Shown here one piece after another: positions 56,567-64,000 of a DNA stretch of 64,000 nt (within the stretch, counting starts at the first letter, position 1; every line of letters starts with the position of its first letter). The stretch is taken from contig NZ_CP043930.1 in assembly GCF_009720525.1 (NCBI RefSeq), positions 2,946,501 through 3,010,500 of the forward strand, in the 5' to 3' direction. The notes below the pieces were generated by a model, which made no database searches, had not been told where the DNA came from, and saw only the letters and a list, made by a program, of their open reading frames with translations. This DNA is from Gimesia benthica (GTDB lineage Bacteria; Planctomycetota; Planctomycetia; Planctomycetales; Planctomycetaceae). Both the position numbers and the translations under genes were made by a program.

Positions 56567-57991
56567 ATGAGCGAACAGCGGGAACCTCAACCACATCAGC
56601 GTAGCTGGCCTCGGCGACTCCTGAACCGCATGGAAGTCAACCGGGCCGTCTTTTATGCGCTGGTCAGTCGGGGCTGGCAGTTCGTATCAGGCCCGGTGAC
56701 GATGTTGCTGATCGTCGCTTTTTTCTCCAGTGAATTGCAGGGCTATTATTATACCTTTGGTGCACTGGTCGCATTGCAGACGTTTGTCGAAATGGGAATG
56801 CAGGTCGTAACCCTTTATCTGACGAGCCATGAATGGTCGAAGCTGGAAATTGATGAGCGGGGATATCTGATCGGAGAAGAGGCAGCTCTCTCCCGGATGC
56901 GCAGTCTGGCGGCCCTGGTTCTTAAATGGTACAGCATCGCCGGACTGTTCTTTGTCGGAGGTATCGGCATCGCAGGTTACTGGTTCTTTCAGTCGCAACC
57001 TGCAGATGGCGTTTACTGGCAGGGCCCCTGGTACTGCATTGTCGGACTCACCGCGCTGACACTCGTCGCCACTCCCTGCCTGACACTGCTGGATGGCTGT
57101 GATCAGGTTTCGGTAACCAATCGCTATCGCGCCTTTCAGAGTGTCACGGCCACCCTGGTTGTCTGGATCGCGATCTCCAGTGGCGCGGGACTCTGGACCA
57201 GTGTTGCCATCTGTGCCGTCCGCCTGTTCTGGGAACTCTGGTTGATTGGCGTGCGCTATCGTCGTTTTTTTGCTTCCCTGCTGCCGGCACGCTCCGGCCC
57301 CGGCGTCAGCTGGTCGGAAGAGGTCTGGCCTCTACACTGGAAGCTGGCAATCCAGGCGATGGCAACCTACTTCACCAGTTCATTTGTGATTCCCCTGATG
57401 TTTGAATACCAGGGCCCGGAGGTCGCCGGCCAGCTGGGTCTGACCTGGACTGCCCTGCTGACACTGCAAATGGCCGCCTATTCCTGGATGCTGAGTCGGG
57501 CACCCCTGTTTGGTTCGCTGGTAGCCCAAAACAATCTCCAGGAATTCAAGCGGGTGTTCTGGCGTCTGTTCCAGGTCTCCACGCAGGTCCTGATTGTAGG
57601 AGGGACGCTGTTCTGTCTGATTGTCTGGATCCTGCAACTGCTCCAGGGAACGGAACTTCCGGAGTCCTGGAGTATTCTGCAGCCCCTCTGGGATCTGGTT
57701 CATAAATTACAGCGTCGGATTCTCCCCCTGTATCCGACGGTCCTGCTGGCACTCGCCCTGATTCCGATTCATATCGCCCAGTGTGTGATGGCGTATATCC
57801 GCCCCTTTAAGCAGGAACCCTTCCTGTTCCTCAATACCGGTTCGCAACTCATCACCGGAGGGCTGGTCTGGTACCTGGGAAAAACCTACGGGCCGGTGGG
57901 CGCGGGCTGGGGTTTTCTACTGACTGGCCTGCTGCTGACCATTCCCGGATTTTTATTCATCCTGAAACGGTTTACTCAAAAACAGTTGTGA
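56567..57991 (+). CDS. Flippase-like polytopic membrane protein
   Basis: A 474-residue inner-membrane protein with about 12 hydrophobic helices, starting after a basic N-terminus (PHQRSWPRRLLNRMEV). It looks like the polysaccharide flippase (Wzx/MOP) superfamily: LKLAIQAM-type central segment (HWKLAIQAMATYFTSSF) and QMAAYSWMLSRAPLFGSL. It is cotranscribed with the ATP-grasp gene. Together they could produce and export a small lipid-linked or peptide-linked compound. Family assignment is moderate. Confidence 0.75.
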   Translation: MSEQREPQPHQRSWPRRLLNRMEVNRAVFYALVSRGWQFVSGPVTMLLIVAFFSSELQGYYYTFGALVALQTFVEMGMQVVTLYLTSHEWSKLEIDERGYLIGEEAALSRMRSLAALVLKWYSIAGLFFVGGIGIAGYWFFQSQPADGVYWQGPWYCIVGLTALTLVATPCLTLLDGCDQVSVTNRYRAFQSVTATLVVWIAISSGAGLWTSVAICAVRLFWELWLIGVRYRRFFASLLPARSGPGVSWSEEVWPLHWKLAIQAMATYFTSSFVIPLMFEYQGPEVAGQLGLTWTALLTLQMAAYSWMLSRAPLFGSLVAQNNLQEFKRVFWRLFQVSTQVLIVGGTLFCLIVWILQLLQGTELPESWSILQPLWDLVHKLQRRILPLYPTVLLALALIPIHIAQCVMAYIRPFKQEPFLFLNTGSQLITGGLVWYLGKTYGPVGAGWGFLLTGLLLTIPGFLFILKRFTQKQL

Positions 57992-58293
57992 TCCGGTGCG
58001 TTGTCCATTCGCTGCTTTACTCCAGAAATTTGTTGACAGATAGAATTCAGCCGTTTACCATCAGGCAATATACATGGATTCATTTATATCATCTCTTATG
58101 GTCTCAAGTTTATACCTTTTCATTTCTGTATTTGATTGAGCCCATTAATTGCAAACCGGTTTCTGTCGGGCCAGTACATCAGGCTTTGAGACGGAGACGT
58201 TCTCGACGGTATTTCACCACTTGAACTGACAAAGTACTTTCTCACTCACAGTCAGTGTCAACTGTTTTCACCTGCGCATTGAAGGAGTCTGCT
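57992..58293. other. Upstream region of the tandem secretin-domain cluster
   Basis: 302 bases containing a possible sigma-70 promoter (see the promoter entry) and ending in GAAGGAG before the ATG of the first paralogue. No gene is recognised. Confidence 0.5.
58033..58061 (+). promoter_or_regulatory. Putative sigma-70 promoter of the tandem paralogue cluster
   Basis: A perfect -35 box TTGACA at 58033-58038 and a -10 box TACCAT (4 of 6 matches) at 58056-58061 with 17 bases between them. It would drive transcription of the three paralogues, about 230 bases upstream of the first ATG. Sequence match only. Confidence 0.4.
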
Positions 58294-59121
58294 ATGCGAG
58301 CGTTATTCATTGCCACTTCTATTTGTCTGATGTGCATTGGCACGACGCTACCGATCACTGCCCAGGCAGAAGACAAGCCAGCAAAGCCAACCTTAAAAAC
58401 GGTTAACTGGCCTGTTAAATTCACAGTTAAGCAAAAGCAGGCAGCGGTTCCACAACAGGTCGTTAAGGTCAAACAGCCGTTCTATCCGGAACTAAATCCC
58501 CGCGTACAGCAAATTCAGGATGCTCTCAATACCAACACGAGAGCCAACTTTCCCAATGTCCCCCTCACTCAGGCACTTAATGAAATCCAGAAGCAGCATG
58601 GCATTAATATGTATGTCTCGGGATCAGCATTGAAAGAACTCGGAATCACTGCCGATGAGCCTGTTAATGTTTCCCTGCATGGGGTATCTCTCAAATCGGC
58701 GTTAAAAATCATTCTGGAGCCGCTGGGACTGGCCTATGAAATTGACCAGGAAGTCCTCAAGATCACCACACAGGCAGAAGTCGACCGCCATCTGATAACG
58801 CGGATTTACCCGGTCGGCATTCTGTGCCATTCTGCTGAAGAATACGAGGCCATCGAAAAAGCGATCGGCACTGCCTGTCGGCCGAACATCTGGGCCCGAC
58901 GTCAACGACTCTCGGCCCAATCCCAGGTCATGAGCACTCCTGCACCATCGCCTTTCGCTGCACCAACTGGAATGCTCAGTTCTTCCATCACGGCCGTCCC
59001 CCAGTGCCAGGCTCTGGTAGTTAATGAGACAGAGGAAATCCATGAGAAAATCGTGGAGCTGCTCACGCAATTACGGCAGGTTCGTCAGATTCAGATGAGA
59101 GCAGTCCCGGAAACGAATTGA
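58294..59121 (+). CDS. STN/secretin-N-domain protein, paralogue 1
   Basis: A 275-residue exported protein (signal peptide MRALFIATSICLMCIG, cleavage near AQAEDK) with GAAGGAG seven bases before the ATG. After a Lys-rich linker, KQPFYPELNP begins a shared domain. Residues 85-175 form an STN-like beta-alpha-beta unit (DEPVNVSLHGVSLKSALKII then TRIYPVGILC). A short linker at 200-235 is Pro/Ser-rich. The last 40 residues (AVPQCQALVVNETEEIHEK then IVELLTQLR) look like the secretin N1 domain. No secretin barrel follows. It is the first of three tandem paralogues. Confidence 0.8.
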   Translation: MRALFIATSICLMCIGTTLPITAQAEDKPAKPTLKTVNWPVKFTVKQKQAAVPQQVVKVKQPFYPELNPRVQQIQDALNTNTRANFPNVPLTQALNEIQKQHGINMYVSGSALKELGITADEPVNVSLHGVSLKSALKIILEPLGLAYEIDQEVLKITTQAEVDRHLITRIYPVGILCHSAEEYEAIEKAIGTACRPNIWARRQRLSAQSQVMSTPAPSPFAAPTGMLSSSITAVPQCQALVVNETEEIHEKIVELLTQLRQVRQIQMRAVPETN

Positions 59122-59165
59122 AGTTCAGTCAGACATTCACCCCTGAAAATCAATTGGAGTAAAGC

Positions 59166-60053
59166 GTGTTACAAACTGGAAAACGCAGAATAACCTGGAC
59201 GCTGCTGGGACTCCTTGCAGGCGGATTATTAGTTACAGCCCAGGCTGAAGACAAACAGCAGACTAAAGCCAGGCAGGCTAAAAAACCAGCTCCGCCAGCG
59301 GTTGCCTCCGATTTAGCGACAGCAACAGCACAAACGGCCCCGACAAAACAGATCTTTTTCCCCCCTCTCACAAAGTTTGAAAAAGAGTTTCAGGAAAAGC
59401 TCAATGAAACGGTCGCCGCAGAATTCGTCGATGCCGCTCTGAGCGACGTCATCACGTTTTACCAGGACTCTACGGGTATCAACTTTGTGATTTTTGCTAA
59501 TGTTCTGGAAGAGGAAGGGCTGACAACCGATGAGCCGGTCAACATCTCTGTCGAGAATATCTCGCTCAAAACAGCCTTGGATCTGATCTTAAATCCGCTC
59601 GATCTCTCGTACGTCGCCGACCGAGATGTGGTCATAATCACTAGCCGATCTCACGCTGAGGATATGCTGAAAACACGCGTCTACCCGGTAGGTGATTTAT
59701 GTCAGACCCCCATCGATTACCTGATGCTGGAATCGGTCATCAAAAACACCAGTGTGGGCAGATGGCGGACGCTTAAAAGTGAAGTCACCCCCAGTCAGCA
59801 GGCGGGAGGTGGATTCGGAGGCGGTGGTGGTATAGGTGGCGGCGCTGGGGATGCTGGAGGCGGTTTCTTCCAGGTTTCCGATCAAAATGGCATGAACGCA
59901 GTACTGGGAGCCAGTCTGTACCACGATGACGATGGTGGAACCGTCTCGATCGTGCCGCAAAGCAAAGCCCTGGTCATCTGCCAGACTTACCACGCTCATA
60001 ATGCAATCGTTGAATTGTTGACCCAACTCCGGGAAGCCCGCGATGTGAATTGA
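59166..60053 (+). CDS. STN/secretin-N-domain protein, paralogue 2 with Gly-rich linker
   Basis: A 295-residue paralogue starting at GTG 59166 after a GGAG, 44 bases behind the first copy. Signal peptide with cleavage near VTAQAEDK. The same sequence of blocks occurs: KQIFFPPLT, DEPVNISVENISLKTALDLI, TRVYPVGDLCQT, then a linker, VSIVPQSKALVICQTYHAHN and IVELLTQLREAR. Between them is a glycine run (about residues 215-236) that is absent from copies 1 and 3, and an acidic loop. The order of motifs is the same in all copies. Confidence 0.8.
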   Translation: MLQTGKRRITWTLLGLLAGGLLVTAQAEDKQQTKARQAKKPAPPAVASDLATATAQTAPTKQIFFPPLTKFEKEFQEKLNETVAAEFVDAALSDVITFYQDSTGINFVIFANVLEEEGLTTDEPVNISVENISLKTALDLILNPLDLSYVADRDVVIITSRSHAEDMLKTRVYPVGDLCQTPIDYLMLESVIKNTSVGRWRTLKSEVTPSQQAGGGFGGGGGIGGGAGDAGGGFFQVSDQNGMNAVLGASLYHDDDGGTVSIVPQSKALVICQTYHAHNAIVELLTQLREARDVN

Positions 60054-60131
60054 TCCATTAGATTAACGTATGGATTTCATTTGACCCTGCTTGGCAACCA
60101 AACCACATTCATTCAAAAACAGGAGACTAAG

Positions 60132-61028
60132 ATGACAGTATATAAGCGACGCAAGATCAGATGCGCCGCACTGGCAATGCTCGTCGGCAGCGTGGTCGTT
60201 TCCGGCTGGTCCATTAGCCTGGCTCTGGGAGATAAAAAACCATCCAAGCTGATAACCAGTTCAGCAGATAAGAACATCGCTAAAAAAACGACTCTGAAAC
60301 AATCGTTTTACCCCGCGTTGACGGCACGCGAAGAAAATCTGGAGGCGGCACTGCAGGCAGAGACAGAAGCGAATTTCCCGGAGATTCCCTTGGATGAAGT
60401 CATGACCTATTTCAGTGAACTCCACAATGTTCCTGTTGTCATTCAGGCCCAGGACCTGGGAGCAATTGGTTTGACGCCTGAAGAGCCCATCGACACTCGA
60501 CTCAAAAACATCACCTTTGAAAATGCATTGGAACAGATTCTGGATCCCCTCAATCTGACCTACGTAGTCGATCGGGATTTGATCCTGATTACTTCGCAAG
60601 CCAAAGCTGACGCAACCTTCAAAACACGCGTATATCCTGTGGGAGATCTCTGTCAGACGGATGATGATTACCAGGCCCTGATTGCAGCCATTCAGAAAGC
60701 AAACCTTGGCATCTGGGAACGCACTGGGAAATCATCTCAGGCAATCAATTCGGCTCAGAACAAAAAGGGAACTCCCAACTCTGAGAAAGATAACGGATTT
60801 TTCAACATCCAGGGGAGCGTCATCGTAGAAGTCGCCAGCCCGCTGCAGGGTGATACTTCAGGGAAAAAGCACAATCCCGGCAGTACGCATCCGAACTACA
60901 CGGGTACGATTTCGGCGGTGCCTCATTCGAAATCTCTGGTCATCAGCCAGACGTACCATACCCACAAGGCAATCGTAGAACTTTTAACCCAACTCCGGAA
61001 ATCCCGGGCTGATCAAAGAGGTAACTAG
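60132..61028 (+). CDS. STN/secretin-N-domain protein, paralogue 3
   Basis: A 298-residue paralogue starting at ATG 60132 (MTVYKRRKIRC), preceded by AGGAG; the earlier frame start at 60081 is rejected. Signal helix ALAMLVGSVVVSGW. Blocks: KQSFYPALT, EEPIDTRLKNITFENALEQI, TRVYPVGDLCQT, a Lys/Ser/Asn-rich linker, and ISAVPHSKSLVISQTYHTHK before IVELLTQLRKSR. Copies 2 and 3 share the exact TRVYPVGDLCQT and IVELLTQLR segments, so they look closer to each other than to copy 1. A hairpin follows in the convergent gap. Confidence 0.8.
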   Translation: MTVYKRRKIRCAALAMLVGSVVVSGWSISLALGDKKPSKLITSSADKNIAKKTTLKQSFYPALTAREENLEAALQAETEANFPEIPLDEVMTYFSELHNVPVVIQAQDLGAIGLTPEEPIDTRLKNITFENALEQILDPLNLTYVVDRDLILITSQAKADATFKTRVYPVGDLCQTDDDYQALIAAIQKANLGIWERTGKSSQAINSAQNKKGTPNSEKDNGFFNIQGSVIVEVASPLQGDTSGKKHNPGSTHPNYTGTISAVPHSKSLVISQTYHTHKAIVELLTQLRKSRADQRGN

Positions 61029-61043
61029 TTAGAGAGCAGCGTA

Positions 61044-61082
61044 AGAAAACAGGAAGCGGACCGAGGGGAGCAGCCCGCTTCC
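61044..61082 (-). terminator. Terminator hairpin in the convergent gap at 61 kb
   Basis: A perfect 8-base-pair GGAAGCGG/CCGCTTCC stem (61052-61082) with a 15-base loop. On the minus strand TGTTTTCTT follows, so it mainly fits termination of the haem-binding dehydrogenase gene. Confidence 0.6.
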
Positions 61083-61091
61083 CGGGGAGAC

Positions 61092-64000
61092 CTATTTTCC
61101 TCCGTTGGGAGTGCGGCTCATAATATAGGAAAACAGGTCTTTGACTTCCTGATCGCTCAGGTTTTTGGTCAGACCATCCGGCATCAGGGAGAGATCGAGG
61201 GCCTTCAGGATCTCGATCTCGTCCTTGTTGATCAGCACTGTCTGCCCTTTGACGTCACGCAGGGTAATCGTCTTCGTCGTCTGCTCGTCGATCAGACCGG
61301 TCACGGTGCGTCCGTCATCGGTCACAATCAGGAAGTTTGTAAACTCCTCACGGATCGCGGCACTCGGATCGACCACCGCCAGCAGCATGAAGTCCAGGTT
61401 ATCCCGTTCGTAGCCGGTCAGCTTGGGACCGGCTTTGCCCCCTTCACCATACAGGGTATGGCAGACAGCACACGTCTTGTTGAACAGAACTTTGCCTGAA
61501 GAGAACTGCCCGCCACCGGCTTTCACCAGACGTGCCACGCGCTGCATTTCTTCCTGTTTTTCTGCTGGAGTGCTGCCGCGAACCTTACCCCAGTGTTTCT
61601 TAATGCTGGCTTTGATGTCGGGATCGTCGTGCAATGCCATCTGCTGTACCACATCCAGCGGAATCGTGTTCGCCTTGATGCGCCAGGCATCCACTTCATT
61701 CAGGAACTGTTTGCTCCATGCTTTACGGCTGGCCAGCACACGTTGCGCGGTACCCCGTACATCATGCTCGTCCAGCAGCGTACTGTGATAGCGGGCCAGA
61801 ATGCTCTTGCCGATACTCGGATTCTCAAAGTTCATCAGCGCCTGCAACGCCACCCGTTTGAGTGAATGGGTATCGGAGCCGGTCAGTGACAGAATCGATG
61901 TCAACGGGCCGATAGCCGCTTTCGTTTTCAGCTGTCCCAGAATCTCGATGTAGGTCAGCCGTGTCGGCCGGTCTGCATTTTTGTCTGCGATGATTTTCAA
62001 GGCGCGACTGGTCGCTTCCTTATCACCCAGACGCAGCGCCAACGCGAGATCGGTTTCACCCAGATTCTTCTGGTACTCCGCCAGACCTTTACTGAGGTCT
62101 TCGGGCAGGTTCGTAATTTTCTGACCGCGGAAGGCTTCCAGCATCCCCACCATCAGTTTTTCCTTGTGTTGATCGGAGGGAGCCAGCTTAAGCAGTTTGG
62201 CACACATCGCATAATTCTCATCGCCGCCTGCCATCGCGTACCGCTGCATGATCCGTTCCAGAATCACATCCTGGACCATCTTAACCTGCCAGAACTCGGG
62301 CTTGGAAAACAGCTTCAGGACGGCCTCCCGATCCGTAGTCGCTTTGCTCTCCAGTGACCACCAGAGCAACAGGGGAATATGCAGGTCTTCCTGATCTTCT
62401 TCTCGCTGCAGCAGGACTTCGGTAATCGCCAGTCCTGATTCCGCGGGGAAGCGTTTGGCTGACGATGCCAGCTGCGACCGCACCTCGGCATAAGGCTCGG
62501 TCTGCGCCAGCTCCACCAGGGATTTCGTCAGCTGTTTTGATGCCTGGTGTCGATCGCCGAGCAGACGAATCGTCCAGCGACGCACGTGTTGATCGCGGTG
62601 TCCCAGTAGTTCCAGGGCCAGTTCTTCATCGAACGCGCCGAGTTGATTCAAGGCCCATAATGCTTCCAGAGCCCGGTCGTCGTTGTCGCTTTTCGCAATC
62701 TTCAACAAGGCTGGTACCATGGACTGGTCACCCCGTTCGCCGATCACCTGCACGGCTTTCTGACGGAACCACTTATTCGAGTGTCCCATGGTTTCGATCA
62801 GTTCGGCATTGGTCTGCTTTGACAGATCGAAAGGTTTCACTGGTTCAAAGTTTTTCGGTTTGAGACGATAGATGCGGCCACTGGTTTTGTGCCAGTTGTC
62901 GCGAGGATCCACGTGTGTCAGACGGCTGTCATACCAGTCCGCCAGATAGATGCAGCCATCGGGGCCGACCTTGATATCCACCGGTCGGAACCAGCGATCC
63001 TGTGTGAGCACAATCGGCGGCATGTCTTCGGTTCGATACGTTGATGTATCCGGAATCAGGTTGCTGGCCATCACGCGGTTATGCAGTGAATTGGCTGCAA
63101 AGACCGCCCCATTATATTTGGGCGGGAAGATCCCCCCTTCATAGATCGAAAAAGTCTGGCTGAAACGCTCCTGGTAACCTTTGTGCCGCATATGTTCGTA
63201 ATAGCCGAAGGCGTACGGGTTCGTCAGCGGACCATGCTTGCCCCAGTTCTTCTTGGCATAGCCTCCCTGAGCGTAATGCATGCCGCGGGTTCCCCCGTTA
63301 TTGGTACCCGAGAAGACACGTCCCTTGGAATCGATTTCCAGGCTGAAGGTATTCCCGCCGCCTTCTGCGAAGATTTCGAAGATTTTCGTTTCGGGGTGAT
63401 AGCGCCAGATCATCTGGCCTTTGAAGTGCAGTCGCTTCGTGACTTCCGAACTCACTGTTCCCGTGGAAGTACTTCCGTTGGCACCGTACAACCAGCCATC
63501 AGGTCCCCACTTGATGCTGTTCGCTACCGAGTGGGTATCTTCCAGACCAAAACCCGAGAGATGCACTTCGGGATCGCCGTCCGGAATATCATCGCCATCC
63601 GCATCGGGATAGAAGAGCAGATAAGGAGGATTCAAAACCCAGATGCCCCCTTTGCCTACCGTGACAGCGGAGACAATATTCAGACCGGTAATCACATCTT
63701 TGATTTTATCGAAGGTCCCGTCTCCATCCGTATCCTCCAGCACAGAAATTTTATCAGCCCCTTTCACATGATTCGGCGGAGCCTGGGGGACTTTATCGAA
63801 GACTGCTCGCAGATACTGATCGTACTTGACGACTTTCAAGCCCGCAGGGAATGGATACTGCAGGTATTGCACAACCCACATCCGCCCCCGATGGTCAAAG
63901 CTCATATACAGCGGCTGCATCACTTCGGGTTCCGCGGCAATGGTTTCCATTTCAAAGTCCTGCTGAACCTGAAACAGTTTCACCGCTTCGGCGGGCGGGG
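61092..64000 (-). CDS. PVC-type membrane-bound dehydrogenase/haem-binding protein (partial, N-terminus outside window)
   Basis: At least 969 residues are visible; the reading frame stays open to the right window edge (PPAEAVKLFQVQ), so the true start and signal peptide are missing. The N-terminal part is the beta-propeller dehydrogenase domain found in planctomycetes and verrucomicrobia (YMSFDHRGRMWVVQYLQYP, EDTDGDGTFDKIK, ADWYDSRLTHVDPRDNW). The middle has HEAT-like helical repeats (about residues 400-820). The C-terminal haem domain has CAVCH and the conserved TDDGRTVTGLIDEQT and LMPDGLTKNLSDQEVKDLFSYI segments. It acts in the periplasm on an unknown, perhaps sugar, substrate. Confidence 0.93.
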   Translation of the reverse strand, partial: PPAEAVKLFQVQQDFEMETIAAEPEVMQPLYMSFDHRGRMWVVQYLQYPFPAGLKVVKYDQYLRAVFDKVPQAPPNHVKGADKISVLEDTDGDGTFDKIKDVITGLNIVSAVTVGKGGIWVLNPPYLLFYPDADGDDIPDGDPEVHLSGFGLEDTHSVANSIKWGPDGWLYGANGSTSTGTVSSEVTKRLHFKGQMIWRYHPETKIFEIFAEGGGNTFSLEIDSKGRVFSGTNNGGTRGMHYAQGGYAKKNWGKHGPLTNPYAFGYYEHMRHKGYQERFSQTFSIYEGGIFPPKYNGAVFAANSLHNRVMASNLIPDTSTYRTEDMPPIVLTQDRWFRPVDIKVGPDGCIYLADWYDSRLTHVDPRDNWHKTSGRIYRLKPKNFEPVKPFDLSKQTNAELIETMGHSNKWFRQKAVQVIGERGDQSMVPALLKIAKSDNDDRALEALWALNQLGAFDEELALELLGHRDQHVRRWTIRLLGDRHQASKQLTKSLVELAQTEPYAEVRSQLASSAKRFPAESGLAITEVLLQREEDQEDLHIPLLLWWSLESKATTDREAVLKLFSKPEFWQVKMVQDVILERIMQRYAMAGGDENYAMCAKLLKLAPSDQHKEKLMVGMLEAFRGQKITNLPEDLSKGLAEYQKNLGETDLALALRLGDKEATSRALKIIADKNADRPTRLTYIEILGQLKTKAAIGPLTSILSLTGSDTHSLKRVALQALMNFENPSIGKSILARYHSTLLDEHDVRGTAQRVLASRKAWSKQFLNEVDAWRIKANTIPLDVVQQMALHDDPDIKASIKKHWGKVRGSTPAEKQEEMQRVARLVKAGGGQFSSGKVLFNKTCAVCHTLYGEGGKAGPKLTGYERDNLDFMLLAVVDPSAAIREEFTNFLIVTDDGRTVTGLIDEQTTKTITLRDVKGQTVLINKDEIEILKALDLSLMPDGLTKNLSDQEVKDLFSYIMSRTPNGGK

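Follow-up and report, generated by a model that had tools for sequence, protein, structure and literature searches.

A tandem array of proteins built from secretin N-domains in the genus Gimesia

Secretin N-domains have been described chiefly within outer-membrane channels or TonB receptors, and a locus of the planctomycete Gimesia benthica raises the question of what such domains do in small proteins that have no channel. The locus lies in a stretch of 64,000 nucleotides (nt), hereafter the window, that covers bases 2946501-3010500 of the 8.03-Mb single-contig genome, and it consists of three adjacent paralogous genes on one strand, here called the array. It is firm that the encoded proteins are built from secretin N-domains, and the array looks like a real component of the cell envelope; for its function we offer a tentative proposal. 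An initial annotation had reported three adjacent genes for exported proteins of 275, 295 and 298 residues with a shared order of motifs, and the coordinates, lengths and motifs were all found as it had given them. The genes, numbered from the first letter of the window, are:

58294..59121, forward strand: array protein 1; ATG start, 275 residues plus stop; first type ("A"); N0 and ring-building domain, short linker
59166..60053, forward strand: array protein 2; GTG start, 295 residues plus stop; middle type; Gly-rich linker
60132..61028, forward strand: array protein 3; ATG start, 298 residues plus stop; last type ("Z")

Domain composition of the array proteins

Each of the three genes is preceded by a GGAG-type ribosome site, the gaps between them are 44 nt and then 78 nt (counted from the ATG at 60132), and the two other paralogs are 35% and 32% identical to protein 1. 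Each protein begins with a hydrophobic export leader (leaders, cleavage sites and membrane anchors were judged by eye, without a signal-peptide program), followed in order by an unconserved tail, a KQ-x-F-[YF]-P-x-L segment, an STN-type unit, the sequence TRxYPVG, a linker and a C-terminal unit. Sequence profiles and structure models together show two domains per protein, a secretin N0 domain (STN) and a single ring-building domain (Secretin_N, N1/N3-type). An array protein is not a secretin, for it has the N0 and ring-building domains and lacks the barrel.

Individually, all three window proteins match Pfam STN at 21.1-21.6 bits, under the cut-off of 28.4, and Secretin_N is matched at 18.2 bits by protein 1 and 12.6 bits by protein 3, under the cut-off of 28.2. 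Among 46 of the 57 array proteins found in the genus (alignment A3, from which nine near-copies and two others were left out), 36 have an STN match (best E 3.9e-9) and 16 a Secretin_N match at E<=1, and a profile of these 46 finds the solved PilQ at E 5.6e-5. A hidden Markov model of the three window proteins aligns over profile positions 53-300 to a 1697-residue secretin of the same genome, covering both domains in order at E 5.3e-35; in that secretin the Secretin barrel (PF00263) scores 76.5 bits. A phmmer search of protein 2 against PDB returned nothing under E 0.02, and mostly Gly-rich linkers of constructs. Profile searches thus bear out the suggested relation to STN and secretin N domains, though all three STN scores are under the Pfam cut-off.

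The barrel is not listed for the three window proteins up to E 10, nor is it among the 25 shown of 26 Pfam families for the 46 members, and the chains of array proteins stop after the ring-building domain. A TonB-dependent transducer has a plug and a barrel after its STN domain, and Pfam matched no TonB-dependent plug or barrel in the window proteins. The earlier statement that barrel, TonB and ATP-binding cassette (ABC) parts are all missing accordingly agrees with the Pfam results for these proteins.

Structure models made with AlphaFold2 place the two domains on the sequence as follows; that of protein 3 was built from 17 sequences, and 150 of its 298 residues have a predicted local distance difference test score (pLDDT) of at least 90.

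60360..60596, forward strand: protein 3, N0/STN domain, residues 77-155; pLDDT of 93-97 in blocks of ten residues; PilQ, GspD, FecR-type and DotD folds among the matches
60621..60698, forward strand: protein 3, ring-building domain, strand 1 with helix 1 (AlphaFold2)
60699..60902, forward strand: protein 3, linker, a loop within the ring-building domain; pLDDT under 50 at residues 200-222 and 224-253, and linker counts
60903..61022, forward strand: protein 3, ring-building domain, strands 2-3 with helix 2 (AlphaFold2)
58795..58878, forward strand: protein 1, ring-building domain, strand 1 with helix 1 (AlphaFold2 of residues 166-275)
58984..59100, forward strand: protein 1, ring-building domain, strands 2-3 with helix 2 (AlphaFold2; structural matches to secretin N1/N3 domains)
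59760..59924, forward strand: protein 2, variable linker, Gly-rich (55 residues, including GFFQV), from the linker analysis

The second domain of protein 3 is modelled as beta-alpha-beta-beta-alpha, with a strand at residues 164-169 (TRVYPVG), a helix at 177-189, strands at 258-263 and 268-273 and a helix at 275-297, and the loop that follows helix 177-189 up to residue 257 is mostly of low confidence. Folded alone, the ring-building domain of protein 1 has the same elements and a short extra helix in the loop. The TRxYPVG segment, the linker and the C-terminal unit are therefore predicted to be one domain, in which the linker is a disordered loop between helix 1 and strand 2. The initial annotation had listed an STN unit followed by separate blocks; its recognition of STN and secretin N domains holds, and its separate blocks merge into this single domain. 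By eye, a long linker lies between strand 1 and helix 1 in secretin L065 and in the relative L048, and the relative L030 is nearly linkerless.

Single-chain prediction, which had been suggested as a check, gave N0 and ring-building folds that match the periplasmic domains of secretins. Structural matches of the protein 3 model include the periplasmic N-domains of PilQ, XcpQ, GspD, EscC and MxiD (best E 8.3e-5), and in structure comparison EscC reaches Z 10.5 over 151 residues with a root-mean-square deviation (rmsd) of 10.8, and DotD (3ady) reaches Z 7.8. The N0 domain alone superposes on secretin N-domains at about 1.9-3 A, whereas two-domain matches have an rmsd of at least 9 A, so that the relative placement of the domains either differs or is badly modelled. 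When the ring-building domain is modelled alone, its first nine structural matches are secretins, with BfpB at Z 8.6 and the others at 7.5-7.8; the third of the nine is named merely as a type II secretion protein.

Conservation of the array across the genus

Is the array a peculiarity of this strain? Of the 17 genomes of the genus, 16 have it, namely this one and 15 of its 16 congeners, and together they hold the 57 proteins; no array was found in G015, an assembly that is 74% complete. Copy numbers, taken from the fetched regions, are two in one genome, three in eight, four in four and five in three. The locus had first been described as a tandem triplication; tandem duplication it is, and three is this strain's number in a genus that has two to five. 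Each array lies wholly on one strand with the same convergent cytochrome-c-type gene downstream in 16 of 16 genomes, and a flippase-like gene lies upstream in 14 of 16, other genes taking that place in G001 and G002. Between the longest open frames, on which promoter distances were also measured, the gaps range from -11 to 89 nt. The gene-order comparison thus found the copies linked and on one strand in all 16 genomes, and no unlinked or unrelated copies were seen.

In a midpoint-rooted tree of the 57 proteins, a first-type group (15 proteins from 14 genomes, support 99/100) and a last-type group (20 proteins from 15 genomes, support 100/99) are recovered. Last-type proteins are at the 3' end in 15 of 15 genomes, and wherever first-type proteins are present too (14 of 14 genomes) these lie ahead of the last type, occupying the first position in 13 of the 14 (the third in G013); the array of G003 has neither type. 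Middle copies are gained and lost. In all 20 last-type proteins, strand 1 of the ring-building domain is followed by the cysteine of a [GA]D[LF]C motif; it may link subunits, and 18 of these proteins have no other cysteine after residue 45. In 13 of 15 first-type proteins, a pair of cysteines at the end of helix 1 and in strand 2 is a candidate disulfide.

The linker is the most variable part. Its length ranges from 1 to 77 residues across the 57 proteins and is at least 30 in 29 of them, and its mean pairwise identity is 0.205 (from the 1378 of 1596 pairs with at least 10 aligned columns), compared with 0.45-0.61 for the folded parts. The idea that duplicated scaffolds had diversified in the middle is supported by this figure, given 0.611 for the last strand-strand-helix. 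A [GN]-[LFYM]-F-x-[VI] motif occurs in the linkers of 27 of the 57 proteins.

The ratio of nonsynonymous to synonymous substitution (dN/dS) of the three window genes to near orthologs in three near genomes is 0.14-0.36, with several dS values saturated, which indicates purifying selection on all three. Orthologs were compared as longest open frames, those of the array genes in the three near genomes being chosen by position and all others by best BLAST match. The same ratio is 0.09-0.12 for the flippase-like and ceramidase-like neighbours, 0.25-0.27 for a gene of 403 residues and 0.01-0.03 for the cytochrome-type gene; the array therefore evolves faster than three of its four neighbours. Protein 1 has a dS of only 0.03-0.05 to its near orthologs (L052, L055 and L059), compared with 0.22-0.30 for proteins 2 and 3, and this low synonymous divergence hints at recombination within the array.

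Upstream of the first gene lies a candidate promoter:

58033..58061, forward strand: sigma-70-type promoter TTGACA-N17-TACCAT; 10/12 consensus; elements and spacing kept ahead of the array in all 16 genomes

The initial annotation had proposed a promoter at 58033. By scan score alone the site is no better than chance, three 10/12 consensus sites being found in the stretch scanned where 2.5 are expected; conservation is what lends the proposal weight. TTGACA-N17-TAnnAT occurs in all 16 genomes, beginning 222-344 nt ahead of the first array gene's longest open frame (in this genome, 261 nt ahead of the ATG at 58294), against 0.0135 per upstream region expected from simple shuffles. The genomes are related and so do not count as 16 independent cases, and the pattern was picked after nine had been aligned. 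The motif is kept in G001 and G002 despite their different upstream genes. One conserved promoter is thus predicted upstream of the array. Extended by a downstream ATATnCAT, it has its sole zero-mismatch site of the genome at the array; as a regulon marker the extended motif was rejected, since with up to three mismatches allowed it gave, besides the array, one site with two mismatches. An Rfam scan of 57900-61200 had no match up to E 0.1, and therefore no known leader RNA is there.

Comparison within the genus thus shows that domains, order of first and last types and promoter stay while copy number and linkers change, and 57 paralogs in 16 genomes together with the dN/dS of the window genes are more than chance.

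A conserved segment precedes the N0 domain in all array proteins:

58471..58497, forward strand: KQPFYPELN segment of protein 1 (proposed lid), conserved in array proteins
59346..59372, forward strand: KQIFFPPLT segment of protein 2 (proposed lid), conserved in array proteins
60297..60323, forward strand: KQSFYPALT segment of protein 3 (proposed lid), conserved in array proteins

The form F[YF]PxL[TNS] stands just before N0 in 52 of the 57 proteins, and all 57 have a looser form. With one regular expression, the segment was found in 9 of 17 single-unit relatives (one of the nine, L082, is loose, and two of the 17, L005 and L029, have long C-terminal parts that by eye look secretin-derived), in none of 13 large secretin or vWA relatives and in none of 12 units of doubled relatives, both the pattern and the classes of relatives having been chosen after the sequences were seen. 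The F-[YF]-P-x-L-T segment (FYP segment) before N0 is a feature new here and a hallmark of the array family.

Relatives in this genome and in other planctomycetes

A search with protein 2 found three large relatives in the same genome, namely a 1724-residue frame with a secretin barrel, a 498-residue frame and a 920-residue vWA frame. In a tree of N0 domains (118 columns with weak forks, and 24 array proteins from 6 of the 16 genomes), the array does not join the genome's secretin; its group (support 90/97) includes the genus's vWA-STN protein and two proteins of G018 (L087), the latter inside the array on long branches. An origin of the array from the genome's own secretin is thus not favoured. 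The vWA-STN protein (the 920-residue frame; L006 and L064, at G000:C1:1035249) is the nearest N0 relative and, like array proteins, has a Gly-rich stretch, here a tail, ending in GFFNV. Unlike them, it is large, has a VWA_3 match of 64.1 bits and lacks both a second ring-building half (by eye) and the FYP segment. Frames of ~816-1062 residues with STN matches occur in many genomes and, by size only, may belong to the vWA-STN family.

Named records with relatives are from Gimesia and other planctomycete assemblies. A search of the phylum that scored the best eight first-look candidates per genome gave matches at E<=1e-52 in 7 of 294 genomes, six of them of the genus and the seventh G045 with one copy. 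A sample of 100 genomes of the order, searched at E<=1e-35 with as many as 24 candidates per genome scored, has just two genomes outside the genus with a match below 1e-52, G045 and G073 (both of genus g25), each with one copy of ~300 residues in another gene neighbourhood. Elsewhere in planctomycetes, barrel-less proteins with STN and ring-building domains are found singly, doubled within one chain, or as doubled chains encoded in tandem; their loci were picked for short open frames and so give no prevalence, and PF00263 was matched in none of the 13 such relatives outside the genus that were scanned with Pfam. These proteins (such as L048, L076, L077, L080, L081 and L084; doubled in L045, L078 and L079) match the array profile with the same domain order, and differ in being single genes or having two units per chain and in their neighbourhoods. 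Tandem genes with two STN-ring-domain units per chain lie at L078:6099-11436 (three genes) and L079:7107-10810 (two genes); they are a separate expansion that took place in another family of the class.

Three further relatives lie in different contexts. At L084:5948-8488 three genes stand in a row, one BlaI-like (by eye), one for BlaR1/M56 and one for an STN-ring-domain protein, and at L028:171-2355 an M56 gene overlaps the frame of a relative; the opening stretch of both relatives resembles the final part of M56, which would fit the splitting off of a sensor domain. The protein at L030:1234-2550 carries a C-terminal ExbD/TolR-type domain (29.5 bits against a cut-off of 25.4).

What the array proteins may do

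Two described free-standing N0 proteins offer precedents, DotD of Legionella (PMC2951367) and VirB7 (XAC2622) of Xanthomonas (PMC3093366). DotD, which is matched by fold, is a separate N0-type protein whose disordered N-terminal tail has a short conserved hydrophobic segment; this beta segment lies on the N0 cleft, a double mutant loses assembly of the core complex, and its authors left undecided whether the segment acts within the chain or on partners (PMC2951367). VirB7 likewise has an N0 domain and a flexible tail, residues 42-49 of which dock head-to-tail on N0 so that oligomers form (PMC3093366). Both differ from array proteins in being lipoproteins, DotD of a type IVB system and VirB7 with a VirB9-binding segment, and a ring-building domain is not described for either in the available parts of these reports (PMC2951367; PMC3093366). 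In PulD, N0 domains make a ring at the base of the secretin (PMC6882859). With secretin N-modules (GspD/XcpQ, PilQ, EscC/InvG; PF07660 STN and PF03958 Secretin_N), array proteins share the order of N0 then ring-building domain, with fold matches; they differ from secretins in having no C-terminal barrel, just one ring-building domain, several paralogs in one array, a linker in the loop between helix 1 and strand 2 and an added FYP segment. By analogy, array proteins resemble the DotD and VirB7 adaptors in combining a free-standing N0 domain with a disordered tail that carries a conserved segment.

Based on these precedents, we tentatively propose, at somewhat less than even confidence, that array proteins form an oligomeric periplasmic adaptor or collar, with the FYP segment as a lid on N0, seated on an envelope machine. 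The proteins would be exported and act in the periplasm as co-expressed subunits. The FYP segment in the disordered tail would dock as a lid on N0, whether of the same chain or of an adjacent paralog, after the pattern of DotD and VirB7; the lid mechanism is suggested because of the conservation of the segment and these two precedents. Ring-building domains would pack side by side, giving an oligomer that has no outer-membrane pore and that is probably seated on one of the cell's envelope machines.

Several results weigh against this proposal. The N0-type fold is unspecific: the top match of the protein 3 model is an anti-sigma C-terminal domain (4m0n, Z 10.8), and baseplate proteins of phages and injection systems reach Z 8-9.7, several phage-baseplate matches being level in rank with secretins. 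For the ring-building domain alone, Foldseek gave nothing under E 0.001, and copper-chaperone-like folds appear from the tenth structural match at Z 7.4, 0.1 under the ninth. Its fold match alone is weak because these folds score nearly equal and one chain alone reaches Z 8; the sequence alignment to the genome's secretin carries more. In the protein 3 model, residue 60 is the sole strand residue of the lid region and the tail before it is at pLDDT 38-52; the lid draws on motif conservation and analogy. No lipobox was seen by eye, there being no cysteine at the likely cleavage site of the three leaders, in which they are unlike DotD and VirB7. A copy number of two to five speaks against a fixed set of partners, and similar domains occur in apparent sensing contexts (L084, L028 and L030). 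Flanking genes point to no machine in a Pfam scan (E<=0.001) of the four nearest genes, three upstream and one downstream. The upstream flank is the flippase-like gene at 56567-57991 (named by eye; no Pfam match), and the downstream flank is the convergent gene from 61092, with matches to DUF7133, HEAT and cytochrome-c.

The alternative that survives best, unlikely as we consider it, is a sensing module, in which array proteins would be the periplasmic receptor or docking part of signal transduction, much like the N0-like domains of FecA/PupA-type receptors and FecR/PupR anti-sigma factors, and the array a set of receptor variants. The anti-sigma match, tied with EscC, fits this, as do the weak FecR_C matches of 10 of the 46 members and the FecR_C match over cut-off in the doubled relative L045 (31.6 against 24.4 bits), and the contexts of the three relatives named above keep a sensing role open. 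Against it, array proteins show by eye no membrane anchor beyond the leader, and the four nearest genes (two of them matchless altogether) have no sigma factor, M56 protease, TonB or ExbD Pfam match. A FecR/PupR anti-sigma factor has an N0-like C-terminal domain, a cytoplasmic domain, a membrane helix and a neighbouring ECF (extracytoplasmic function) sigma gene; an array chain may differ from it in starting with an export leader.

It is distinctly unlikely that array proteins are subunits or decoys of the cell's own secretins, inserting into or capping the N0 ring of a true secretin and tuning its assembly or gating. The genome does hold 7 secretin-barrel and 14 T2SSE-type ATPase matches over cut-off, and its 1697-residue secretin has both domains in the array order; but all seven secretin matches are far from the array, the array is 38-39% identical to the array-like secretin over the shared part, and the N0 tree places the array elsewhere, though its 118 columns resolve little. 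That the genes are decaying or neutral duplicates of an STN gene with no selected role is barely credible, for the wide variation in copy number and linkers that would fit it stands against the low dN/dS, the conserved promoter and the fixed order of paralog types.

Returning to the adaptor or collar, a bolder version of it would be a secretin-like ring without a pore, in which the paralogs of one operon, with FYP lids, make a mixed collar with paralog-specific loops as a genus-specific envelope part, for example in or under crateriform structures; we regard it as quite improbable. Crateriform structures of Planctopirus appear to join outer and cell membranes and bear pili-like fibres, and their proteins are not named, nor does the word secretin occur, in the available text of that study (PMC5394234); a link between them and the array is speculation. 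A 2012 survey of planctomycete outer-membrane proteins reports two secretins in one anammox species (PMC3422733). For Gimesia maris, genetic tools have been reported (PMC5539593). Among the open-access papers searched, none joins planctomycetes with the STN domain or with "secretin and TonB"; those pairing Gimesia with secretin were judged by title, apart from passages of an editorial, and passages from some of those pairing Rhodopirellula with secretin mention secretins of an anammox planctomycete and nothing like the array.

The array indicates that a phylum with an odd cell envelope uses units of an N0 and a ring-building domain as separate proteins, and that one genus has expanded them into a conserved array. 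If rings do form, a secretin-type ring does not need a pore in order to work, and a direct handle on this question would be the FYP segment.

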